A DNA stretch of 26,102 nt, from positions 1 to 26,102 of IMG/VR virus record IMGVR_UViG_3300034403_000255; one strand, 5' to 3'. Shown here piece by piece: positions 4,059 through 26,102 of this stretch. The notes under the pieces are model-generated. The model was not told the DNA's origin, ran no database searches, and was given only the letters and a program-made list of their open reading frames with translations. The first letter of the stretch is position 1; the number at the start of each line of letters is the position of its first letter. Origin of the DNA: a virus. The translations under genes were made by a program, and so were the position numbers.

Positions 4059-6161
4059 ATGGTCATATTTGACATAGAAGCAAATGGTCTTTTAGATACT
4101 TTAACCCACATGTGGTGTGCAGTGACTCACGATTTAGAGTCAGGAGAGACGAAGATTTTCTCTGATTATTCTGAGGAGATACTCGACGGAGACATTAACG
4201 AGTTTGTTGATTATTTATATTCACAACCAGAGATTTGTGGACATAACATAATCGCTTATGATTTACCAGCTATTGAGCAAGTGACTGGTCGTGAGTATGA
4301 AGGAGAAGTTGTGGACACATTATTGCTTTCAAAGCTCTTACATTTCACACGCATACAACCTAAAGGTGCTTCCAGTCGTCATTCACTTGATGCTTGGGGT
4401 ATTCGATTAGGTGTTTCTAAGCCTAAGCAAGAGCAATGGTTGGTCTGGGAAGAAGCTATGCTTAATCGATGTAAAGAAGATGTACGAATTAATGTATTAA
4501 CTTACGAGAAATTAATGAAAGAGAAATCTTTCCAACCAGGAATTGACAAATGTATCAAACTGGAGCACAAAGTTGCTCAGATATCACGTGAACAAGTTGT
4601 GAATGGTTGGTTGCTCGATAAGGATAAGCTTCAAGAAAATCTTGATTATTTAGATGAAGAGATTGAGAGATTGCGTTCACACATCGAGCCACAGATACCT
4701 TCGGTAGTTAAACAAAAAGATCCTAAAATGACTTGGACGGATATGAATAAGGTCATGAAGGAATATGACATGGGTTGGAAAAAAGTACCTATCACTCGAA
4801 TGGATCATTTAGGTAAGCCTATTAAAAAGACATTTAAGCCAATTAAAGCTAGGATACTTAAATCAGGTTATTATGATAGATGGACTTCTTTGTGGTTCGG
4901 CATCACTCCAGAGAGTGCTATAGGAGATCGTTTAGTCATCGGTCCATATACTCGTATCGAGTTTGTCAAAGTCAAGTTATCTCAACATGCTCTAGTAAAA
5001 GAGTTCTTATTAAAGCAAGGATGGAAGCCTACACAATGGACATTTAAAAAGGATAGAGATGGTAAAGTCTTGAGAGACGATAAGAACAAACCCATAAATA
5101 ATAGCCCTAAGCTAACTGAAGACAGCTACGACAGTATTAAGGGAGAGATTGGCAATAAGATCTCCCGTTGGGCTACACTTACGCACAGAAGAAATACCTT
5201 ATCTAATCCAAAAGATGATACAAAGGGTTGGCAGAATGTTGTCAGACCTGATGGTCGCTTAGTTTGTGTACCTGATACATTGGGTGCAGCGACTGGTCGG
5301 ATGACGCATAAGAACTTAGTTAATGTTCCTGGAGTTAAGTCTTTATTTGGCAAAGAGATGAGAGAAGTTTTTATTGCTGATAAAGGAAACATACTTGTAG
5401 GAGCTGATGCTGCTGGTGCGCAATTGCGGTTACTCGCAGCTGCTATGGAAGATGAAGAATACGTAGAGTTAGTAGTTGATGGTTCGGAGGAGGACGAAGA
5501 TGGAAAATTTATTGGAACAGACGTGCACACTCAAAATGGTCTGGCTGCTGGTCTCATTGATCCTGCTGATGTCGATTGGCTACGTAATAATAGCAGTGAG
5601 CATCCTAAATATCATATTTACCATGATAGGTTCGTTGGTCGTAGAGGTGCTAGTAAAAATTTTATCTATGGACTCCTCTTTGGTGCAGGAGACGCTAAGA
5701 TGGGTATTTTGGTAAATGGTGGGGCAGCAGAAGGGAAGAGATTAAAAGAATCATTCTTAGCTGGTTTTCCCAAATTGCAGTTACTAGTAGACAAATTAAC
5801 AGAGCAATATAATAGTAGTAAAAAGAAATACAAGGAAGGATTTATACACGGAGCAGACGGAAGAAGGATATACGTAGATTCACCCCATAAAGTACTTAAT
5901 TATCTGCTTCAAGGGAATGAAGCCATATACATGAAGTATGTAATGTGCATGTCAGATCAGCTATTACGGAAGAATAAAATCAGAGCTAAGTTGCTTTGTT
6001 TTTACCATGATGAGTTGAACATGGAAGTACATCCTGAAGACGTAGAGAAAACAGTAAAGATTTTAGCTCATTCTTTCGGAAGAGCTGGAGAAAAACTTGA
6101 TTTCACTTGCCCAATGGCATCTGACCCAAAGGTTGGAAAGAATTGGTATGAAATCCATTAG
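4059..6161 (+). CDS. Family A DNA polymerase with 3'-5' exonuclease domain (T7 gp5-like)
   Basis: A 700-residue replicative polymerase, close to T7 gp5 (704). Exonuclease domain, residues 1-150: FDIE (D5, E7), GHNIIAYD (D68) and R-C-K-E-D at 137-141. The usual Exo III tyrosine is an arginine here. Polymerase domain: TGRMTHKNLVNVPG at 412-425, motif A D450-A-A-G-A-Q455-L-R, O-helix R529, K533, Y537 and F541, and motif C H650-D-E. Two normally invariant partners, the motif A glutamate and the second O-helix tyrosine, are Gln and Phe. Y537 corresponds to T7 Y526. The gene follows an AGGAGGA SD and is flanked by endonuclease I and the ssDNA-binding protein. No helicase/primase is seen in the window. 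Confidence 0.95.
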   Translation: MVIFDIEANGLLDTLTHMWCAVTHDLESGETKIFSDYSEEILDGDINEFVDYLYSQPEICGHNIIAYDLPAIEQVTGREYEGEVVDTLLLSKLLHFTRIQPKGASSRHSLDAWGIRLGVSKPKQEQWLVWEEAMLNRCKEDVRINVLTYEKLMKEKSFQPGIDKCIKLEHKVAQISREQVVNGWLLDKDKLQENLDYLDEEIERLRSHIEPQIPSVVKQKDPKMTWTDMNKVMKEYDMGWKKVPITRMDHLGKPIKKTFKPIKARILKSGYYDRWTSLWFGITPESAIGDRLVIGPYTRIEFVKVKLSQHALVKEFLLKQGWKPTQWTFKKDRDGKVLRDDKNKPINNSPKLTEDSYDSIKGEIGNKISRWATLTHRRNTLSNPKDDTKGWQNVVRPDGRLVCVPDTLGAATGRMTHKNLVNVPGVKSLFGKEMREVFIADKGNILVGADAAGAQLRLLAAAMEDEEYVELVVDGSEEDEDGKFIGTDVHTQNGLAAGLIDPADVDWLRNNSSEHPKYHIYHDRFVGRRGASKNFIYGLLFGAGDAKMGILVNGGAAEGKRLKESFLAGFPKLQLLVDKLTEQYNSSKKKYKEGFIHGADGRRIYVDSPHKVLNYLLQGNEAIYMKYVMCMSDQLLRKNKIRAKLLCFYHDELNMEVHPEDVEKTVKILAHSFGRAGEKLDFTCPMASDPKVGKNWYEIH

Positions 6162-11004: not shown

Positions 11005-11377
11005 AGATTTATTATTATTAACCATAAGGTTCTATTTAACATACGCACTTGCCATTATCCTATTCCCACATATCGGGGTAGACCTTTCAACGATAATCCC
11101 TGAATCGGGAGTATTTCAACCATTGACATTTTTAGAACAATTAGCACCTGCTGTTGTTCTTCTCATGATGTCTCTCGGTATAATGACAAGGGCTGCTGCT
11201 TTGGCTGTAATAGGGTTAGTAGGTTACAGCTTATTTTATACTAAGTTTGGTGTTAATATTTCGGATTTAGAGAGTCCTTTAATATTATCTCTTCTATCAG
11301 GTCTAATTTTAACAGATGGTGCTGGAAGGGTCAGTATTGACGGTAGGCTTAATTCACTTTTTAGTAGGAGTAAATAA
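10991..11377 (+). CDS. DoxX-like four-helix membrane protein
   Basis: A 128-residue inner-membrane protein with hydrophobic segments at about 5-26, 48-64, 66-84 and 95-108. The segment S-L-G-I-M-T-R-A-A-A-L after helix 2 and the C-terminal G-A-G-R-V-S-I-D follow the DoxX pattern (GllTR...GpGrxSLD). DoxX-family proteins are linked to quinone-dependent oxidoreductases or redox stress, but most have no proven role. Its stop TAA overlaps the ATG of the acyl-CoA dehydrogenase by one base, so the two should be translated together. A membrane redox partner for the dehydrogenase is an attractive but unproven idea. Confidence 0.6.
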   Translation: MSPFKDLLLLTIRFYLTYALAIILFPHIGVDLSTIIPESGVFQPLTFLEQLAPAVVLLMMSLGIMTRAAALAVIGLVGYSLFYTKFGVNISDLESPLILSLLSGLILTDGAGRVSIDGRLNSLFSRSK

Positions 11378-13389
11378 TGATTAGAAGTTTTATGAAGATA
11401 ATGAAAAAGATGCTTCCACCTATATCAAAGACAGAGTCTGAAGCATTAGACGCTGGTGACTCATTCATTGAAGCCGAGTTATTCCAAGGAAGACTTGACG
11501 TTAAGGCGTTGATCGACTATCCGATAACTCAGTTGACAGAACGTGAACAGTCTTTTCTTGATAATGAAGTAGAAGAGTTATGTGCGATGGTTGACGATTA
11601 CCAAGTTAACCAAGATAAAGATTTATCTCCAAAGACTTGGGATTATTTAAGAGACAACGGATTTTTCGGATTAGAGATACCTATTGAATATGGAGGAAAG
11701 GGATTTTCCACCAAAGCTCACAGCGACATAATCCAAAAGATTGCCTCTAGATCAGTTACCCTTGGTGTTACCACTATGGTACCGAATAGTATTGGTCCAG
11801 GGAAACTAATTAAAAGATACGGTACACAAGAACAAAAGGATACTTATCTAGAGCCATTAGCTACAGGTAAAGAGTTTCCTTGTTTCGCATTGACAGCGCC
11901 ACACGCTGGTTCCGACGCTGGAGCTATTACCGACACAGGCGTAGTCTTTGAACAGGACGGTGAGTTATTCTTGCGTCTTAACTGGGAGAAGCGTTACATC
12001 ACATTATGTCCAGTAGCTACATTACTTGGTATGGCTTTCAAACTGACTGATCCAGATGGATTAATCGGTGATGAAGTAAACCGTGGAATAACCGTAGCAT
12101 TGGTCTCCTCGGCTCTGGAGGGCGTGACTACAGGACAAAGACATGACCCCTTAGGGTGTGCCTTTATGAACGGTCCAACGTTCGGTAGAGACGTTGTAGT
12201 TCCTCTGTCTAATGTTATCGGTGGCGTAGATTATGTTGGCAAGGGCTGGAAGATGCTCATGGAGAGTTTATCTGAAGGTCGTGGCATTTCTTTGCCTGCC
12301 CTTAGTGTAGCCAACATGAAGCGTAGTTCACGTATCGTTGGAGCATACGCTCGAGTACGTAAACAGTTCAACATTTCAATCGGCAAGTTTGAAGGTATTC
12401 AAGATGGATTAGCTCGTATGGCTGGTAATGCTTACATGTGTGAAGCAGCTAGAGAGTTAGTAGCATCTTCTTTGGATCAAGGCGTTAAGCCTGCTGTGGC
12501 TTCTGCCATCTTAAAGTTTGAAACAACTGAAAGAGGAAGAGATGCTGTAGTAGATTCAATGGATATTATTGGTGGTATTGGTATTATGGAAGGTCCAAAT
12601 AATTTTATGGCTAATTTCTATAAAGCATTACCTATCGGAATCACAGTGGAAGGAGCCAATATTCTGACTCGGAGCTTAATCATGTTCGGTCAAGGTAGTG
12701 TTAGATGTCATCCGCATTTACAAAATGAAATTAGGAGTCTACAAAATGATGATGCAAAACTTTTCACACGTTCTTTATTGGGTCATGGGTCTTATCTTAT
12801 CGGCAATATTGTTCGGGCAGTATTTCACAATCTTACTTTTGGGTATTTTATCCGTACTGCAGGTGATAAGCATTCACGACGATTCTTCAGACGACTGGGA
12901 TTAATCTCAGTAAATTATGCTGTAATGTCTGACTTGGCTTTACTCATTCTGGGTGGTAAGCTGAAACGTAAAGAGCGTATGTCTGGACAGTTTGCTGATG
13001 TTTTAAGTAATATGTTCTTAGCTTCTTGTGCCCTAAAGAGATATGTAAATGAAGGTTGTCGTAAAGATGATTTACCACTACTAAGATGGGCGATGGATGA
13101 TACTCTTCCTACTGCTAATCAAGCAATGTGGGATATTATAACTAAGAAAGACGATATCATAGCAGATGTTGCTAATATCGTAATCAATGATAGTGAGACT
13201 CGAGACAACTTAACTCGGGGAATATATTTAAACCTAGACCCAAATGACTGCACTGGTCGGGTCGAGTATGCCTTTGCAAAGGAGACAGACATATGGAAAG
13301 AACATCATAAAACTTTAATTAGTAAGGAAGATTACACGACACTCACAGAAGAGTCTGTTAAAAATGCTATTAAAGTAGACTATAAGTAG
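11377..13389 (+). CDS. fadE: FadE-type acyl-CoA dehydrogenase
   Basis: A 670-residue protein for the first step of beta-oxidation, acyl-CoA to trans-2-enoyl-CoA with FAD. The FadE-specific core is clear: E-Y-G-G-K-G-F at 104-110, V-P-N-S-I-G-P-G at 135-142, R-Y-G-T-Q-E-Q-K-D at 147-155 and C-F-A-L-T-A-P-H-A-G-S-D-A-G-A-I at 169-184. The long C-terminal region is typical of FadE rather than of small 380-residue acyl-CoA dehydrogenases. E. coli FadE is 814 residues with an N-terminal membrane region; here the N-terminus is much shorter and has no strong transmembrane span. The gene heads the lipid operon, coupled to the DoxX-like gene (TAATG), with AGGAG 6 bases before the ATG. A hairpin follows its stop. 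Confidence 0.93.
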   Translation: MIRSFMKIMKKMLPPISKTESEALDAGDSFIEAELFQGRLDVKALIDYPITQLTEREQSFLDNEVEELCAMVDDYQVNQDKDLSPKTWDYLRDNGFFGLEIPIEYGGKGFSTKAHSDIIQKIASRSVTLGVTTMVPNSIGPGKLIKRYGTQEQKDTYLEPLATGKEFPCFALTAPHAGSDAGAITDTGVVFEQDGELFLRLNWEKRYITLCPVATLLGMAFKLTDPDGLIGDEVNRGITVALVSSALEGVTTGQRHDPLGCAFMNGPTFGRDVVVPLSNVIGGVDYVGKGWKMLMESLSEGRGISLPALSVANMKRSSRIVGAYARVRKQFNISIGKFEGIQDGLARMAGNAYMCEAARELVASSLDQGVKPAVASAILKFETTERGRDAVVDSMDIIGGIGIMEGPNNFMANFYKALPIGITVEGANILTRSLIMFGQGSVRCHPHLQNEIRSLQNDDAKLFTRSLLGHGSYLIGNIVRAVFHNLTFGYFIRTAGDKHSRRFFRRLGLISVNYAVMSDLALLILGGKLKRKERMSGQFADVLSNMFLASCALKRYVNEGCRKDDLPLLRWAMDDTLPTANQAMWDIITKKDDIIADVANIVINDSETRDNLTRGIYLNLDPNDCTGRVEYAFAKETDIWKEHHKTLISKEDYTTLTEESVKNAIKVDYK

Positions 13390-13396
13390 GTACAGA

Positions 13397-13420
13397 GCTG
13401 GGGGAGCATTGTCCCTCAGC
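13397..13420 (+). other. Intercistronic hairpin between fadE-type and acyltransferase/lipase genes
   Basis: A 9-bp stem GCTGGGGGA/TCCCTCAGC (one G-U pair) with loop GCATTG lies 7 bases past the dehydrogenase stop. No T-run follows; the next bases lead into AAAGGAGG for the next gene. It is therefore more likely an mRNA-stabilising or partial-attenuation element than a full terminator. Confidence 0.6.
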
Positions 13421-13441
13421 AACCCTAAAAGGAGGTAGATT

Positions 13442-15283
13442 ATGTATCGTATAAGTAGGATAGGTTTCAGAGTAATGTTTTTCTTTATATCTTTAATGTT
13501 GAGAGTATTTAATTTACATATTAACCTGAAGAATTACAATGATACATTGAAAAGTGGAGACATCTTTTTGTTTAACCATTTCATCAGAGCAGAGACAGCT
13601 CTCCCCCAGTACATTTTATATTGTGCTGATCCAAACATTAAGTGTTACGCTGTAGCCCATGCTTCATTTTTTAAGATATGGTGGCTTGGACCGATTGTGC
13701 GTAAGCTAGGGGCAATCCCCCACAATCACCCTCGATTGATGCATCTCTTGACAGAGAAGTTGTCTGAGGGTTACAAGGTAGTCATATTCCCACAAGGGAG
13801 GATGGTTAAAGATCATGAAGACGTTGATATGAAGACAGGTAGTGCCGTTCTTGCATTAGGTACAGACCTTTACAAGAGACACATACTCCTCAATAAAAAG
13901 GATTATTCTGAAGAGCTTGTAGAGTTTGCCACAAAGCCGACCATAATTGTACCTTGTAACATCTCTTATTACCCTTTAAGAATTACACAAAACCGAGTAT
14001 CTATCTTTGGTAAAAAGGTAGGACTACCATCCACAGCTTTAGAGGAGCTCATCGTAGAAGGGAATATCATATTGAGGGACACAGAAATGAATCTTAACTT
14101 TGGTGTACCTATCACGATTGACAGTCGTCATATCGATGTTAAGAATGTGAAAGATATTCCTTCAGCATTTGAAGTACTCAAACCCCACAGAGAAGAGAGA
14201 TTCAAACTAAAGGATAACTACGAGGAGACTATCTATACTAACTTAACTATTAATCATGGTCATGTATTCAGTGAGATTCTCTTTAATTTCCTTGAGATAG
14301 AAGTCCCTAAAGTTTCCAGATATCAACTTGGGAGTGCCATGGAGATAGCTTGTGAAGACTTGGGAGTAGATTTTTCAGAGAGCCAACTAATAAAATTAAT
14401 TAAGTTAGCTATAGAATGTAATCTAATCTCTGAAGAGGATTACTTTTATATTATTTCGGAGAATCTTATAAAGGAGCAACCTTTTAAATTTGTAAGGATG
14501 AATAACCCATTGAAGGTTTATCGAAATGAATTATCCCCAATGTCTCGTGAGAGAGGTATAATCAAAGAAGCCATACGTGGTTCTCGCAGAGTAAGTAAGA
14601 GAGGTTTCATACTACATCCAGATAATGATAATGGAAGAGCCATAGTGCTCCTTCACGGTCTATTTGCGACAGCTGACCAGTGTAGACCTTTCGCAGAGAG
14701 ATTGAGAGATAAGGGTTATTCTGTTTACGTACCACTTGTTGCTGGTCACGGCACATCTGTCGATGATCTCTCGAAGAAGACTAAAGAAGACTGGTATAAG
14801 TCTGTAGTAGATTGTTTACCGAGGAACACCAAGTTTCACATTATAGGATTTTCCACAGGAGGTCTCATTGCTGCCAAGGTGGCTAAAGAGATGTCTGAGA
14901 AAGTTCTTTCTTTATCTTGTATATGTACCCCACACGAATTTGTCAGTAAGGGTATGGGTTTCATTAAGTTACTAAAGGCTATCCGTTTTCCTAAGTTTTG
15001 GTTTAACGGAGAGAATCCTGACACATACTCTCTGATACCTATTAATACCCTTTGCGAGTTACAGGATTTCGTTTCAGAGTCTAAAGAGACATTTAAAGAC
15101 ATTAATATAAACACACTCATCACGCAAACCACTGGAGACCCTATAGTAGCACCTTCTAGTGGAGAAGCACTTTTAGGTCTTATAGGAGACAATGCCAAGT
15201 TGGTTCCAATAGAAGCAGATGCACATAACATAGAGAGTTCAGAGGACATCATCCTCGATTTCATAGGAGAAACAAATGAGTAA
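13442..15283 (+). CDS. PlsC-like acyltransferase fused to alpha/beta-hydrolase lipase
   Basis: A 613-residue two-enzyme fusion. Residues 1 to about 250 form a lysophospholipid acyltransferase-like domain: a hydrophobic N-terminus (about 8-24), N-H-F-I-R-A-E at 45-51 (the HX4D motif with Glu for Asp) and F-P-Q-G-R-M at 116-121 in place of FPEGTR. A helical linker covers about 250-385. Residues about 395-610 form a monoacylglycerol-lipase/esterase-like hydrolase: L-L-H-G at 403-406, G-F-S-T-G at 469-473 with S471, D566 in T-G-D-P, and H595. It may move acyl groups between glycerolipids and release free fatty acids at the inner membrane. It overlaps the thiolase gene by 8 bases, tying it to beta-oxidation. 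Individual activities are inferred from motifs. Confidence 0.85.
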   Translation: MYRISRIGFRVMFFFISLMLRVFNLHINLKNYNDTLKSGDIFLFNHFIRAETALPQYILYCADPNIKCYAVAHASFFKIWWLGPIVRKLGAIPHNHPRLMHLLTEKLSEGYKVVIFPQGRMVKDHEDVDMKTGSAVLALGTDLYKRHILLNKKDYSEELVEFATKPTIIVPCNISYYPLRITQNRVSIFGKKVGLPSTALEELIVEGNIILRDTEMNLNFGVPITIDSRHIDVKNVKDIPSAFEVLKPHREERFKLKDNYEETIYTNLTINHGHVFSEILFNFLEIEVPKVSRYQLGSAMEIACEDLGVDFSESQLIKLIKLAIECNLISEEDYFYIISENLIKEQPFKFVRMNNPLKVYRNELSPMSRERGIIKEAIRGSRRVSKRGFILHPDNDNGRAIVLLHGLFATADQCRPFAERLRDKGYSVYVPLVAGHGTSVDDLSKKTKEDWYKSVVDCLPRNTKFHIIGFSTGGLIAAKVAKEMSEKVLSLSCICTPHEFVSKGMGFIKLLKAIRFPKFWFNGENPDTYSLIPINTLCELQDFVSESKETFKDININTLITQTTGDPIVAPSSGEALLGLIGDNAKLVPIEADAHNIESSEDIILDFIGETNE

Positions 15284-16487
15284 GAAAGTATATATAGTAG
15301 ACGGAGCCAGAACACCTTTTTTAAGAAATGAAGGAAGACGTGGACCATTTAGTGGTGTAGATCTTGCAGTTCACGCTTCCAAAGCAGTGTTGCAGAAGAG
15401 TGGCATCAGTGTCGATTCCATCGACGAAGTCATTCTTGGATCAGTAATGATTGAGCCTGAAGAAGTTAACCCTGCGAGAGTACTTGGTGTACGTTTAGGA
15501 GTACCTATTACTTCCCCTGCATACACGATACAACGCAACTGCACATCTGGTTTAGACGCCATTGACGCTGCACGTAAAGACATCATGCTTGGCATCCACG
15601 ACATAGTTCTTTGTGGTGGAACTGAAGCGATGTCCAGAGCAGCATTACAGTACCGTCCTGCAGCATCTGATTGGTTTTCGAAGATGCCTAAGATGAAGAC
15701 TTTACCATCGAAGATTAAACATTTGTTAAAAGTCCCTTTTAGTACATTTTTCAATCCCACTATAGCATTATTGGAGGGATTAAAAGATCCATTCCATAAA
15801 GTACTCATGGGTGTAACGGCAGAGAATGTTGCTAATAAAGCTGGTATTGACCGTAAAGATATGGACAAGTATTCAGTGCGCAGCCACGAGCGTTCATTAT
15901 CTGCAAATTTCGATGATGAGATTTACCCTTTATACGACAGTCGTGGGTTTCTTTATGACACAGACACTGGAGTTCGTAAAGGTCTTACTATTGAGAAGAT
16001 TGGTAAGATGAGATCAGCATTTGTACCTAACGGTAACGTAACTGCTGCAAACAGCTCACAGATCACAGACGGATCTGCTATGTTGATCTTGGCTAGCGAA
16101 GAGTATGTTAAGATGTATAACATAAAGCCTATAGCTGAGATTATCGACATACAATGGTCTGGTGTCGACCCAATGTCTATGGGTCTTGGTCCAGTCCCTG
16201 CTATTAAGCAGTTACTTGGCATGAATGAAGTTCAACATTCCGAGATTAAACATGTAGAGATTAACGAAGCATTTGCTGGTCAAGTATTAGCATGCAATGA
16301 TCAACTTGGATTCGATGAAACTATTCTTAACCCACATGGTGGAGCTGTAGCCGTAGGTCACCCTATTGGTGCTTCTCTCGCCCGATTAACATTACATGCA
16401 GCTTTAAACATTGACGGTTACGCTATCGCTTCTGGTTGCGTTGGTGGTGGACAAGGTGGAGCAGTTTTATTAAAGGAGGTTAAATGA
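15276..16487 (+). CDS. fadI: 3-ketoacyl-CoA thiolase (FadI type)
   Basis: A 403-residue thiolase that cleaves 3-ketoacyl-CoA with CoA to acetyl-CoA and a shortened acyl-CoA, the last beta-oxidation step. Visible catalytic parts: Q-R-N-C-T-S-G at 86-92 with nucleophile C89, N-E-A-F-A-G-Q, V-G-H-P-I-G-A-S with H362, and S-G-C-V-G-G-G-Q-G with C388. The long loop after A-E-A-M-S and the pairing with a FadJ-like partner fit FadI-type trifunctional-complex thiolases better than biosynthetic ones. The start overlaps the lipase fusion by 8 bases, and the stop overlaps the next ATG (ATGA), so it is made together with both neighbours. The full length of the family is kept. Confidence 0.93.
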   Translation: MSKKVYIVDGARTPFLRNEGRRGPFSGVDLAVHASKAVLQKSGISVDSIDEVILGSVMIEPEEVNPARVLGVRLGVPITSPAYTIQRNCTSGLDAIDAARKDIMLGIHDIVLCGGTEAMSRAALQYRPAASDWFSKMPKMKTLPSKIKHLLKVPFSTFFNPTIALLEGLKDPFHKVLMGVTAENVANKAGIDRKDMDKYSVRSHERSLSANFDDEIYPLYDSRGFLYDTDTGVRKGLTIEKIGKMRSAFVPNGNVTAANSSQITDGSAMLILASEEYVKMYNIKPIAEIIDIQWSGVDPMSMGLGPVPAIKQLLGMNEVQHSEIKHVEINEAFAGQVLACNDQLGFDETILNPHGGAVAVGHPIGASLARLTLHAALNIDGYAIASGCVGGGQGGAVLLKEVK

Positions 16488-18388
16488 CTAACTGGGTATT
16501 AGAAGAACATAAAGAAGATGATACTATCAAGATCCTAACTATGGACAAAGAGGATTCATCAGCGAATGTATTGAGTAAAGCTGTATTAACTGAGTTGAGA
16601 ATAATCTTAATGCAACTCAAGTTAAATAAGAGACTTACCAAGCTGATCATCCGTTCTGGGAAGAAGTCTGGATTTATTCTTGGTGCTGACGTCACCGAGT
16701 TTGATGAAGTTACAGGAACTGATGCGATCAACTTTGTATCTAAGAACCATGAGACTCTTCGGATGATTAAAGATCTACCGTTCACGACTATGTGTCTTAT
16801 CGAGGGTTTTGCTCTTGGTGGTGGTACTGAGTTAGCTTTAATGTGTGATTACATCATTGCTGCTGATACTAAGAATACTCGTATCGGATTGCCAGAGATT
16901 CAGTTAGGCATCTTTCCTGGATATGGTGGTTTGTACAATACGATAAAGCGTATGGGAGATTTCAATGCACTTAATTTTATTTTAAGTGGTAAGCCCATGC
17001 CTGCTAAGGTGGCGCTAAAGCAAGGTCTCGTTGATCAAGTGGTTATGCCTTCTGGGTTACTGCAAGCAGCTGTCAACTTTCAGGAGTTTGTAAAGAGACC
17101 TAAAGGTCGTATCCTCGGATCGAAAAGTAGAGCATTCTTAGCTACCGTTCTTCGTAAAGGGGTTGAGAAGAAAGCAGACCCACGCTTTTACCCTGCACCT
17201 TATGCACTCATCGACCATTGGAAAACCTTTGGTGCTGATGAGAACGTAGAGAAAGATTCAGTAGCTGTCCAGAAGTTGTTCGATTCTTCTGAAGCTAAAG
17301 GTCTTATGCGTTGTTTCCATTTACAAGACGGTTTGAAGAAGTTACCTTTGCATAACGATTACAACTCTAAGACTAAATTTAAAAGAGTACATGTAGTTGG
17401 AGCTGGCGTTATGGGAGCAGACATTGCTTCTTGGTGTGCCATCAAAGGATTTCAAGTTACATTACATGATATCAACAAAGAAACATTAGGAAGAGCTGTT
17501 AAGAGAACACACGAGACTATGAACAAGATCAAAGCCTTTGATGCTAAAGATCGATTTGTGGCAGATATCTCTGGAGATGGAGCACGTGATGCTGACATCA
17601 TCATTGAAGCAGTGTTGGAAGATGCAGGCATTAAGACTAAAGTTCTCAGACATTTAGAGAGCATTAAGAAGCCTTCAGCTATCTTAGCTACTAATACTTC
17701 TTCCATCATGATTGAGAAGCTACAGACTGGCATGAAACATCCCGAGCATTTGCTTGGTTTGCATTTCTTTAACCCAGTCGCGCAGATGCTTTTAGTTGAG
17801 ATAGTATTACCTGAGAAGTACAATACAAATACCCGAGATCGTCTTGTGGTTTTCACTAAGGCTATTGGCAAGTTGCCTTTACCTGTGAAGAGTCATCCAG
17901 GCTTTCTAGTGAACAGAGTTTTACTTCCATACCTATCTTTAGCCATGAAGTTCGTTGAAGAAGGGTACAGCCCCAAACTGATTGACCAAGCAGCATTAGA
18001 TTTTGGTATGCCTATGGGTCCATTGAAGCTATGTGATACGATAGGTTTAGATATTTGTCTACATGTAAGTGACGTTTTCGAAGAACAACTTGGAGAAGGG
18101 TATGCTGTACCTGAAATATTGAAAGATATGGTTGCAAAAGGTAATATCGGAGCAAAGTCTGGTAAAGGATTTTATCAGAAAGGAAAGCCTGTGAAGTTTC
18201 ATAATGGTACTATTTTAGAGAAAAGAGGTACCAGTGATATTTCAAAGGCATTACATAGTGTATTTATCGAGGAGTGTCGTAAAGTCCTAGATGAAGGGAT
18301 TATTGAAAGTCCTGAGCATTTAGACGCAGGCATCATCTTTGCAACAGGTTTCTGTCCAAGCTCGGGTGGACCAAGTTCTGCATTATGA
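16484..18388 (+). CDS. fadJ: Enoyl-CoA hydratase/3-hydroxyacyl-CoA dehydrogenase (FadJ/FadB type), C-terminally short
   Basis: A 634-residue bifunctional beta-oxidation enzyme. The hydratase half (about 1-200) has G-F-A-L-G-G-G-T-E at 108-116 and G-L-P-E-I-Q-L-G at 135-142, so both catalytic glutamates (E116, E138) are present. The dehydrogenase half (about 298-634) has the NAD motif V-V-G-A-G-V-M-G-A at 304-312, H427 in L-H-F-F-N-P, E439 and K-S-G-K-G-F-Y. E. coli FadB/FadJ are 714-729 residues. This copy stops just after A-T-G-F-C-P-S-S-G-G-P, where the family continues for roughly 50-60 more residues, and a hairpin follows the stop. It is coupled to the thiolase by ATGA. All catalytic residues remain, so activity is plausible. 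Confidence 0.92.
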   Translation: MTNWVLEEHKEDDTIKILTMDKEDSSANVLSKAVLTELRIILMQLKLNKRLTKLIIRSGKKSGFILGADVTEFDEVTGTDAINFVSKNHETLRMIKDLPFTTMCLIEGFALGGGTELALMCDYIIAADTKNTRIGLPEIQLGIFPGYGGLYNTIKRMGDFNALNFILSGKPMPAKVALKQGLVDQVVMPSGLLQAAVNFQEFVKRPKGRILGSKSRAFLATVLRKGVEKKADPRFYPAPYALIDHWKTFGADENVEKDSVAVQKLFDSSEAKGLMRCFHLQDGLKKLPLHNDYNSKTKFKRVHVVGAGVMGADIASWCAIKGFQVTLHDINKETLGRAVKRTHETMNKIKAFDAKDRFVADISGDGARDADIIIEAVLEDAGIKTKVLRHLESIKKPSAILATNTSSIMIEKLQTGMKHPEHLLGLHFFNPVAQMLLVEIVLPEKYNTNTRDRLVVFTKAIGKLPLPVKSHPGFLVNRVLLPYLSLAMKFVEEGYSPKLIDQAALDFGMPMGPLKLCDTIGLDICLHVSDVFEEQLGEGYAVPEILKDMVAKGNIGAKSGKGFYQKGKPVKFHNGTILEKRGTSDISKALHSVFIEECRKVLDEGIIESPEHLDAGIIFATGFCPSSGGPSSAL

Positions 18389-18398
18389 ACACGGAAGA

Positions 18399-18423
18399 GG
18401 GAGCAGTATTTAATACTGTTCCC
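18399..18423 (+). terminator. Hairpin after the beta-oxidation operon
   Basis: An 11-bp stem GGGAGCAGTAT/ATACTGTTCCC (one G-U pair) with a 3-base loop lies 10 bases after the fadJ-type stop. The following bases are CGAAAATAAATT rather than a clean T-run. It may act as a weak or processing-type terminator, or protect the 3' end of the lipid-operon mRNA before ftsH. Confidence 0.5.
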
Positions 18424-18455
18424 GAAAATAAATTAACTAATATAGGAGGATCTAT

Positions 18456-20231: not shown

Positions 20232-20236
20232 TATCG

Positions 20237-20262
20237 AAACACCTCTCTCTGGAGGGGTGTTT
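20237..20262 (+). terminator. Hairpin terminator after ftsH
   Basis: An 11-bp stem AAACACCTCTC/GAGGGGTGTTT with loop TCTG begins 6 bases after the ftsH stop and ends in TTT. The A-rich start and T-rich end make it plausible in either direction. It is the best terminator-like structure in the window, though the T-tract is short. A TATAAT and new gene block follow, consistent with a transcript boundary. Confidence 0.65.
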
Positions 20263-20303
20263 ACAAGTCACCCAAGCTTGTACTGATGAGAATGGGAATG
20301 CAA

Positions 20304-20633: not shown

Positions 20634-20750
20634 ATGGGAAAGGTAAACAGATTAGTGCCTAAAGGTGCTCAGAAAGCAAAACGAGGGGGTCATGGATCTT
20701 ATAAAGAGAAAAGGCATCCAGGATCAAAAGTGAATAAACAAAAGAAGTAA
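20634..20750 (+). CDS. Small basic protein, 38 aa
   Basis: A 38-residue frame starting 9 bases after the HNH gene, preceded by AGGAGAGG. About a third of its residues are Lys or Arg, with glycines and no hydrophobic core (MGKVNRLVPKGAQKAKRGG at the start, ending N-K-Q-K-K). Composition resembles the tail of the preceding HNH protein, suggesting a nucleic-acid-binding peptide. It is too short for family assignment; the SD and spacing are the main support. Confidence 0.5.
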   Translation: MGKVNRLVPKGAQKAKRGGHGSYKEKRHPGSKVNKQKK

Positions 20751-20777
20751 GTAGCAAGAACAGGGGGTACATGTACA

Positions 20778-23668: not shown

Positions 23669-24267
23669 TCGAGAGAGTAACCCGAGAAGAGCTTGAAGTA
23701 TGGGTTCAGAGTATGGAGGATGGTCGCAATAAGACCTTCGCTAAAGGTGCAATGAACTTATGGATACGTTTTAAGAACTTTGAAAAGAATGCACCATTTG
23801 CTCTCAGAGTAGATGGAGACATCAAATGTGTTATCTTAATTACTAAATTATCGAGAGCACCTTATGTCAATCTCTATGAGATTGTCACAGCAACAGGAGA
23901 AGAAGGAAATGGTTATGCGAGAAGATTATATTGGGATGTGCTGTCACATTTTTATGATGATGGTGTATTAAGATTAAAGATGTCTTGTACTCCAACGAGT
24001 ATTGGATGGCATTACGGTAATGGTATTATCGGATGGGGAGTAGATGCAACAGGCAGTATCAGAGTTGATATCCCATTAAGGAAGACAAGAGAAGAACAGT
24101 TAGCACTTAGAGCTGATTATAAAAATAATATGGAAGAGATTACACCTCCAGAGAAAGCTATTAAGGCTCTTCTCAAAGAGAACCCTACGTTCGGTACAAA
24201 GAAGACTGCACAAGTTGAAGCATCTAAAGAACAGTTAGGTTCGTACTATTTAAGGGATATACTATGA
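23665..24267 (+). CDS. GNAT-like acyltransferase/amidoligase-like protein
   Basis: A 200-residue protein with a GNAT-like core: a strand V-N-L-Y-E-I-V-T-A near 68-76, then G-N-G-Y-A-R-R-L at about 81-88 resembling the acetyl-CoA pyrophosphate loop (Q/R-x-x-G-x-G/A), and a later S-I-G-W-H-Y-G-N-G segment at the usual Y-x-x-x-G-F position. The last 60 residues are charged and outside the core. The start overlaps the amidotransferase stop (ATGA) and the stop overlaps the next ATG, so the three are translationally coupled. GNAT-fold proteins paired with class II amidotransferases in phages have been proposed as amide-bond-forming enzymes, which is one possible reading. The fold call is moderate. 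Confidence 0.6.
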   Translation: MIERVTREELEVWVQSMEDGRNKTFAKGAMNLWIRFKNFEKNAPFALRVDGDIKCVILITKLSRAPYVNLYEIVTATGEEGNGYARRLYWDVLSHFYDDGVLRLKMSCTPTSIGWHYGNGIIGWGVDATGSIRVDIPLRKTREEQLALRADYKNNMEEITPPEKAIKALLKENPTFGTKKTAQVEASKEQLGSYYLRDIL

Positions 24268-24551
24268 AAAAGTTATTAGTACTAGCAATTGTGGCAATGA
24301 TGTCATTATCTGGTACAGTTATGGCAAAAGAAGATAAGATTTTAGATTTGAGATTGGTTGACATGGGATACCGTTGGGTTCAGAACATAGAGGACTCATC
24401 TGTGAATACCTCTAGGGTCTTCACTACTTTTGGTGTCACAAAGAAGGATTATATAAGGTTCGGTTGGAATAGACAGGGTATTAACCAACCGTTTTCTGCA
24501 AATGGAAACGATACTGTCATGTTTCAATGGACTCATAAATTTGGGATGTGA
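24264..24551 (+). CDS. Small secreted/outer-membrane-like protein with signal peptide
   Basis: A 95-residue protein with a clear Sec signal peptide: MKKLL, hydrophobic core, then S-G-T-V-M-A with predicted cleavage after A21. The mature 74 residues alternate polar and hydrophobic residues and end in a beta-strand-like V-M-F-Q-W-T-H-K-F-G-M, like outer-membrane beta-proteins but far too short for a barrel alone. There is no lipobox cysteine and no mature cysteine. It is coupled to the GNAT-like gene by ATGA. It could act in the periplasm or outer membrane of the infected cell, for example in receptor masking; that is speculation. Confidence 0.65.
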   Translation: MKKLLVLAIVAMMSLSGTVMAKEDKILDLRLVDMGYRWVQNIEDSSVNTSRVFTTFGVTKKDYIRFGWNRQGINQPFSANGNDTVMFQWTHKFGM

Positions 24552-24737
24552 GAACTCCTGTCGTCGTCGTTATGCCGACGTTCAGGTTGGAGCTGTCTTG
24601 GTGTTTAATCCAAGACTGGGCTGGTGTTTAATCCAGCTATTTCCCGACTATACCTAGTCAAGTAGACAAACTGACCACTCCTGGATACGAGTATAAACTG
24701 TCTTTTCTGTCAACATTAACCAAAGGAGGTAATTCTG
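24552..24737 (+). promoter_or_regulatory. 186-base structured leader before the PEP carboxykinase gene
   Basis: This is the longest gene-free stretch in the window and has no convincing ORF. It can form a series of stem-loops: CGTCG/CGACG at 24565-24580, possibly extended by CCTG/CAGG; the twin hairpins at 24595-24637; and GACTA/TAGTC at 24646-24659. It ends with AAAGGAGG 8 bases before the ATG. A weak promoter-like pair, CTGACC (24671-24676) and TATAAA (24692-24697) with 15-base spacing, lies near the 3' end. It does not match a riboswitch I can name. Regulation of the metabolic gene is inferred from position and structure. Confidence 0.5.
24595..24637 (+). repeat. Twin hairpins with identical loop and covarying stems
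   Basis: The 14-base core TGGTGTTTAATCCA occurs at 24599-24612 and 24622-24635, 23 bases apart. Each copy folds into a hairpin with loop TGTTTAAT closed by TGG/CCA. Outside the core the sequences differ yet still pair: GTCT/AGAC in the first, GGC/GCT (one G-U) in the second. Pairing kept despite sequence change points to selected RNA structure. It may be a two-site target for an RNA-binding protein or a repeated sensor element. Confidence 0.75.
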
Positions 24738-26102
24738 ATGACGACCCATGTTAACTTAAACGCTCCCGAACTGTACGAACATGCGTTAGCCAGAAGTGAA
24801 GGTGTCCTAGGGACTACTGGTGCTTTAGTGGTGAATACTGGCAAATACACTGGAAGGTCTCCAAACGACAAATTCACAGTGAATGAAGAATCAAGTGCTC
24901 ATAGTGTAGACTGGGGCAAGATAAATAGACCATTTGATAAAGATGCTTTCTATGATTTAGAGAAGAGAGTATTAGATTATTTAGACAGTAAGGGAAATAC
25001 TTACGAACAGAATGTAACAGCTGGCAGTGACATCACTGTCAGAGTAGTAACCGAGAGAGCTTGGCATAGCCTTTTCACACAGAACATGTTTAAGCCTTTA
25101 CAGATAACGGAAGACGAAGAGGAAGAGTTTTCCCCAGACCTCACCATTTTACACGCTCCAGGATTCAAAGCGATACCTGAGAGAGACGGCACAAACTCTG
25201 AAGCATTTGTGATAGTTAACTTTTACAGAAAGTTAGTGATCATTGGTGGAACCGAGTATGCTGGAGAGATTAAGAAAGCTGCGTTTTACTTTATGAACTA
25301 CATATACCCTTTGCAGGGTACGATGACTTTACACGCATCTGCTAATGTAGACCCTGAAGGTAATGGAGCAGTATTCTTTGGTTTATCAGGAACAGGAAAG
25401 ACAACCTTATCTGCTGACACCACAAGAGATTTAGTAGGAGACGATGAGCACGGATGGGACGACAACGGAATATTCAACCTCGAGGGAGGATGTTACGCTA
25501 AAGTAATCGACCTTGACCCTAACAAAGAACCGCTTATACACACTGCTATTAACACTTTCGGAGCAATCCAGGAGAATGTGTGGGTTGACCCTATAACACG
25601 CTCTAGCGACCTCTCCTGCGCTACAATCACTGAGAATACACGTTCTTCTTATCCTTTAGGGCACATACCAAATGCTGTTTCTTCAGGGACGATGGGACAC
25701 CCTAAAGATATTATTATGTTGACATGTGATTCCTTTGGAGTCCTTCCACCGATTTCCCGATTAACTCCTCGACAAGCGATGTTTCATTTCTTATCTGGTT
25801 ACACATCCAAGATAGCAGGAACGGAAGCAGGAGTAACAGAACCTGAAGCAGTCTTCAGTGCTTGTTTCGGTGAGCCTTTTATGGCACTAGATCCAAGAGT
25901 ATATGGAGAGCTACTTAGAAAGAAGATTGAAGAACACGACATTAGATGCTGGTTGCTTAATACTGGTTGGTCTGGTGGCGGATATGGGGTAGGAGCACGT
26001 ATGGATATTGATCATACAAGGACTCTTCTCAACGCAGCATTGGGTGGATACCTTGATGATGTGCCCATGGTTGAACATCCAGTCTTTAACGTGATGATAC
26101 CA
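24738..26102 (+). CDS. pckA: ATP-dependent phosphoenolpyruvate carboxykinase, 3' partial
   Basis: The frame is open for 455 codons to the window edge; the family is about 520-540 residues, so roughly 70-80 are missing off the right side. It converts oxaloacetate plus ATP to PEP, CO2 and ADP, the entry step of gluconeogenesis. Conserved parts seen: T-G-R-S-P-N-D-K near the N-terminus, G-G-T-E-Y-A-G-E-I-K-K, the kinase loop G-L-S-G-T-G-K-T-T-L-S (about 25380-25412), G-D-D-E-H-G-W with the metal Asp, N-L-E-G-G-C-Y-A-K, T-E-N-T-R, F-G-V-L-P-P, S-G-Y-T-S-K-I-A-G-T-E and N-T-G-W-S-G-G-G. No active-site loss is visible. A strong AAAGGAGG precedes the ATG. It follows phage-type genes and a structured leader. 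Confidence 0.95.
   Translation, partial: MTTHVNLNAPELYEHALARSEGVLGTTGALVVNTGKYTGRSPNDKFTVNEESSAHSVDWGKINRPFDKDAFYDLEKRVLDYLDSKGNTYEQNVTAGSDITVRVVTERAWHSLFTQNMFKPLQITEDEEEEFSPDLTILHAPGFKAIPERDGTNSEAFVIVNFYRKLVIIGGTEYAGEIKKAAFYFMNYIYPLQGTMTLHASANVDPEGNGAVFFGLSGTGKTTLSADTTRDLVGDDEHGWDDNGIFNLEGGCYAKVIDLDPNKEPLIHTAINTFGAIQENVWVDPITRSSDLSCATITENTRSSYPLGHIPNAVSSGTMGHPKDIIMLTCDSFGVLPPISRLTPRQAMFHFLSGYTSKIAGTEAGVTEPEAVFSACFGEPFMALDPRVYGELLRKKIEEHDIRCWLLNTGWSGGGYGVGARMDIDHTRTLLNAALGGYLDDVPMVEHPVFNVMIP

Follow-up and report, generated by a model that had tools for sequence, protein, structure and literature searches.

Short, stable stem-loops on the coding strand of spacers within one apparent transcription unit are known from bacterial and phage mRNAs, in which they give segments of the message separate stabilities. 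Classic RNase III substrates are formed by a long double helix of about two helical turns. In the put RNAs of phage HK022, which are cis-acting antitermination RNAs, two stem-loops lie next to each other, and the Guanidine-II (mini-ykkC) riboswitch also consists of two small leader hairpins with matching loops, in this case ACGR. The T7 early precursor, roughly 7 kb in length, is cut by RNase III at five sites (PMC4858673), and the regulatory region of pckA is bound by lambda cI, so that phage control of a host pckA gene has a precedent at the DNA level (PMC6359870). Here we compare these systems with a pair of hairpins ahead of the pckA gene of a viral genome fragment.

The window, by which we mean the whole stretch of 26,102 bases analysed, is a complete IMG/VR record and represents a genome fragment that ends inside pckA. 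All genes lie on the + strand and overlap or abut. The T7-like replication genes comprise a family A DNA polymerase, a gp2.5-like single-stranded DNA-binding protein, an endonuclease and an exonuclease, and the metabolic cargo comprises an arginase family protein, a FadE-type acyl-CoA dehydrogenase, an acyltransferase-hydrolase, a thiolase, a FadJ/FadB-type protein and PEP carboxykinase; an FtsH gene is also present. The FadE-, acyltransferase/hydrolase-, thiolase- and FadJ-type genes form a cluster at 11377-18388 that approximates a full beta-oxidation set, with FtsH next and pckA 6 kb further on, and the FadJ-type protein has no near relative in annotated phage records (best match ∼35% identity). 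At 20634-20753, an open reading frame of ∼39 codons would encode a strongly basic product (MGKVNRLVPKGAQKAKRGGHG...) with no family match. The nearest annotated DNA polymerases are those of Vibrio Zobellviridae, at 32-38% identity. The DNA polymerase search returned one 70% relative, the metagenomic sequence L212, and otherwise more remote ones that are T7-like or from Zobellviridae. L212 (7.6 kb) has matching gene order and ∼53-70% identity for the main genes; it holds replication genes only, without the pckA region.

The features at the pckA end of the window are as follows.

24264 to 24551, + strand: upstream 95-aa open reading frame with a signal-like N-terminal stretch and no family match

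24552 to 24737, + strand: leader gap of 186 nt, from the stop of the 95-aa open reading frame to the pckA start, with the Shine-Dalgarno sequence AGGAGGT at 24724-24730

24595 to 24616, + strand: hairpin 1, 7-bp stem and loop TGTTTAAT, based on sequence, repeat, folding and pair probabilities of 0.99-1.0

24619 to 24638, + strand: hairpin 2, 6-bp stem with a terminal G-U pair and loop TGTTTAAT, based on sequence, repeat, folding and pair probabilities of 0.85-1.0

24738 to 26102, + strand: pckA, ATP-type PEP carboxykinase (Pfam PEPCK_ATP, E 9e-193), truncated by the contig end

The twin hairpins begin 43 nt past the upstream stop codon and are built on the 14-mer TGGTGTTTAATCCA, which is present as exact copies at 24599-24612 and 24622-24635, a direct repeat with a start-to-start distance of 23 nt; no further exact repeat of at least 11 bases recurs inside 60 nt in the 26,102-nt window. 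The original prediction, made from the sequence alone, had placed two hairpins 23 bases apart around an exact 14-base core: the core is indeed exact, but the 23 bases are the repeat period, and the linker between the stems is 2 nt. In hairpin 1, 24595-24601 pairs with 24610-24616 in 7 bp that are Watson-Crick throughout (loop 24602-24609), and in hairpin 2, 24619-24624 pairs with 24633-24638 in 6 bp, with the G-U pair outermost (loop 24625-24632). The 8-nt loop is common to both. The outer stem bases had also been predicted to differ yet pair, and this is borne out at three pairs, one of them with a G-U: T24598-A24613 in hairpin 1 against C24621-G24636 in hairpin 2, C24597-G24614 against G24620-C24637, and T24596-A24615 against G24619-U24638. 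Hairpin 1 has a fourth outer pair, G24595-C24616, but the corresponding bases of copy 2 are an unpaired G-A, so that the compensated pairs number three and not four.

Folding of the full leader gave both stems pair probabilities of 0.85-1.0 and left both loops fully unpaired. The hairpin energies are -9.1 and -8.6 kcal/mol, and the 51 nt from 24590 to 24640 have a folding energy of -20.0 kcal/mol (z -3.9); taken as a whole, the 186-nt leader does not stand out in its folding (z -1.5). Given the leader base composition, copy 1 would gain its four additional Watson-Crick pairs by chance with a probability of ∼0.004, and copy 2 its two Watson-Crick pairs and one G-U pair with a probability of ∼0.024. 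Comparable twin hairpins (identical 7-9 nt loops, stems of at least 6 bp, within 60 nt) were found in 2 of 1000 random windows of equal length (first-order Markov, same composition). Overall, the twin structure is better than chance, though short of overwhelming, and its significance is tempered because the feature was chosen out of the whole window. It is unlikely that the twin arrangement is functionless and arose by chance or from a short hairpin core that was duplicated locally and neutrally: short tandem repeats do arise readily, the covariation comes from two copies only, and the element is a singleton across the collections described below, but the outer stems pair through different bases in each copy, and the position is intergenic.

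In the folded leader, neither the Shine-Dalgarno sequence nor the start codon is a pairing partner of the twin stems, which rules out sequestration of the Shine-Dalgarno sequence by the twin hairpins. One further helix would enclose both hairpins.

24585 to 24649, + strand: candidate outer helix GGUUGG/CCGACU of a three-way junction, seen only in an isolated 66-nt segment

Although the isolated segment is stable (z -3.5), the probability of this outer helix in the whole leader is 0, and, together with the lack of pairing between the twin stems and the ribosome-binding site, its loss leaves a simple translational switch unsupported. The leader contains CTCCT twice (24555-24559 and 24679-24683), and AGGAG in the ribosome-binding site of pckA could pair with either copy; it pairs with the first in the minimum free energy structure of the leader, but this copy is no longer its favoured partner after the coding sequence is added. 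A 19-codon open reading frame at 24572-24631 (MPTFRLELSWCLIQDWAGV) covers hairpin 1 and has its stop codon inside the loop of hairpin 2; as no Shine-Dalgarno sequence precedes it, it is probably a chance occurrence.

Searches for further examples were made in several collections. Rfam 15 gave no match to the leader at the gathering threshold, nor at E up to 10. The exact double core had 0 matches in viral contigs and 0 in bacterial and archaeal genomes (one each of ∼85,000 prokaryote species), the pckA leaders of 80 phage and 80 bacterial loci contained no twin hairpins sharing a loop, and none of the 80 phage pckA loci shared a gene with the window beyond pckA. Searched by itself, the leader matched no related DNA among phage or plasmid records. 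A covariance-model search, as the original prediction had proposed, was run with a model from both copies, and nothing except the two source copies rose above noise. At least 119 viral stretches contain the single 15-mer, a number that we estimate to be about the chance level for that amount of sequence, with no second such hairpin in those stretches that were inspected; bare-loop doublets of similar spacing included no twin hairpins among the matches listed. Two matches to a looser double pattern were rejected: in L124 the repeats lie within apparent coding sequence, and in L123 they would pair in another register and lie upstream of a promoter. The searched collections may omit records very near the window, and the absence of relatives is therefore not proof, but within these collections the twin element is a singleton. 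Since no known relative covers the leader, the evidence for covariation comes from two copies within a single molecule; selection on structure, as originally proposed, is plausible from the covarying stems, the exact loops and ensemble probabilities of ∼1, within the bounds of those two copies.

The L123 match, at 5581-5613 (- strand) of an 84-kb viral contig, is a 17-nt direct repeat (GTGTTTAATCCACTAAA, twice) that precedes a sigma-70-like promoter by ∼100 bp and has GTGTTTAATCCA in common with the twin hairpins; it probably represents DNA operators. Elsewhere, a terminator-like hairpin in L041 (∼10184; 9-bp stem, opposite-strand T tract) has the loop TGTTTAAT on one strand, which is likely a coincidence.

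The twins, too, could be read as tandem operators, with TGG-N8-CCA dyads at a distance of 23 bp, or about two turns of the helix, that would be bound by a transcription factor controlling a promoter that follows them in the gap. Consistent with this, they combine dyad symmetry and tandem spacing with a non-coding site that has a gene downstream, a TATAAA lies downstream of them at 24692-24697, lambda cI offers a precedent for control of a host pckA at the DNA level, and the direct repeat in L123 is similar. However, a usual operator pair has symmetric, conserved half-sites around a free centre, and here the opposite is seen: the 8-nt centre TGTTTAAT is asymmetric yet exact, and the arms change in matched pairs, which argues for RNA over DNA operators. 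One pair is moreover G-U, which with the other two properties points to single-stranded RNA, and a sigma-70 consensus promoter with 16-18 nt spacing, the promoter type scanned for, is absent from the leader gap. We consider a DNA operator pair quite unlikely.

At the RNA level, it is doubtful that the twins form a dedicated cis-regulatory RNA of pckA, in which an RNA-binding protein that is dimeric or has two domains, encoded by the phage or its host, would read the two UGUUUAAU loops and alter translation or mRNA stability. Exact loops on covarying stems are a classic signature of loop recognition, the loops are fully unpaired on stems with a probability of ∼1, and the element precedes a metabolic gene, in a gap larger than any other in the fragment. 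Nevertheless, no second instance was found in the viral and bacterial collections, at the 160 pckA loci or with the covariance model, the stems leave the Shine-Dalgarno sequence and start codon untouched, and gaps without pckA carry hairpins too. The proposal that a protein site or cis-regulatory RNA times or meters pckA thus received no positive support from a second example, an Rfam match or Shine-Dalgarno pairing, and the regulatory-RNA reading appears unsupported beyond the two copies. Similarly, the resemblance to the Guanidine-II riboswitch ends with the two small leader hairpins and their matching loops, as the twin loop is UGUUUAAU and not ACGR, and Rfam gave no match. An antitermination RNA of the HK022 put type is very improbable: the two hairpins with their 2-nt linker in a phage operon reproduce its layout, but the stems have no internal bulges, the loops are identical, no shared sequence is recognised by Rfam, and the + strand of 24552-24737 has no terminator-like site. 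For the same stretch, no intrinsic terminator (GC-rich hairpin with a U tract) was listed that could correspond to the twins themselves.

The comparison with the rest of the fragment bears directly on these alternatives. The original prediction described the pckA leader as the sole sizeable leader in a tightly packed genome; it is the largest gap, with 186 of only 649 intergenic nt, but four gaps measure at least 50 nt. Hairpins are present in all four, whatever gene follows.

13397 to 13420, + strand: hairpin in the FadE/PlsC gap, 9 bp, -15.9 kcal/mol, the most stable uninterrupted hairpin of the window

18399 to 18423, + strand: hairpin in the FadJ/FtsH gap, 11 bp, -15.0 kcal/mol, loop region UAUUUAAUA

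20237 to 20262, + strand: hairpin in the FtsH/HNH-like gap, 11 bp, -14.6 kcal/mol

These are the top three uninterrupted hairpins by stability in the 26 kb, and they begin 6-11 nt past stop codons. Intergenic DNA makes up 2.5% of the window, which gives a naive chance of 1.5e-5 that the top three would all be intergenic. None of the FadE, FadJ and FtsH gap hairpins has a U tract: the + strand has no terminator-like site at 18389-18455 or 20232-20285, and the hairpin at 13397-13420, which lies outside the terminator scan, is followed by AACCCTAAAA, without a T tract. Because each contains a G-U pair and the RNA of these three gaps folds better on the + than on the - strand, the three hairpins look like mRNA structures. 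Among phages with a T7-like DNA polymerase (DNA-polymerase relatives of at least 7 kb among L212-L291), 17 of 81 top hairpins were intergenic compared with 3.2 expected, an enrichment that will in part, and may largely, reflect ordinary terminators. The FadJ/FtsH hairpin is a near-perfect palindrome (GGGAGCAGTATTTAATACTGTTCCC), and the UUUAAU of its loop region is common to the twin loops; its score against the covariance model was not significant (E 3.6). It is a long shot that the twins are a phage-specific regulatory RNA whose two identical loops are read by a protein controlling the auxiliary pckA, perhaps with the UUUAAU loop as a further site in a small carbon-metabolism regulon.

We therefore favour, with a probability of roughly 0.4, the reading that the twins are an intercistronic stem-loop pair of a polycistronic phage mRNA that would act on the stability or segmentation of the transcript. 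A new regulatory switch is less likely than hairpins of the ordinary kind found in mRNA spacers, because the leader is one of four hairpin-bearing gaps and has no known relative. The twins are stable stem-loops in a spacer between co-oriented genes, as in the bacterial and phage systems, and three of the four sites of the fragment lie directly after a stop codon. Read-through transcription across the leader gap is likely, as the genes are co-oriented and overlap or abut and no sigma-70 site with 16-18 nt spacing was found. The twin segment folds better on the + than on the - strand, the twin stems do not engage the start region of pckA, and the intergenic enrichment in phages with T7-like polymerases agrees with this reading. 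Against it, the twins begin 43 nt and not 6-11 nt past the stop codon and are weaker than the other three hairpins, the whole leader folds better on the - strand, the enrichment in relatives carries the caveat given above, and a barrier to decay needs no exact identity of an 8-nt loop, a feature that also sets the twins apart from the known intercistronic stem-loops. As at T7 RNase III sites, the hairpins lie between genes of a fragment with T7-like replication functions, but the twin stems (7 and 6 bp) and those of the other gaps (9-11 bp) are far shorter than the long helix of classic substrates, and we do not assign the twins to RNase III sites for this reason.

If the twins are such spacer stem-loops, a read-through mRNA would span the 95-aa open reading frame, the spacer and pckA, and the twins would hinder decay of the upstream message in the 3'-to-5' direction; alternatively, they may mark a processing or pausing point. 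A predicted outcome would be separate half-lives for the messages on either side of the spacer. The identical loops may reflect a protein contact, or may remain from a local duplication that copied the core, after which the outer stem drifted but had to keep pairing. In conclusion, the twin hairpins are real and modestly unusual, and most likely represent a variation on the usual intercistronic stem-loop. If the loops were a protein site, they would represent RNA-level control of a phage auxiliary metabolic gene, on a fragment that also carries beta-oxidation genes. More generally, the fragment suggests that phages rich in metabolic cargo put stem-loops between their cargo genes, which may be a simple route to gene-specific mRNA levels.
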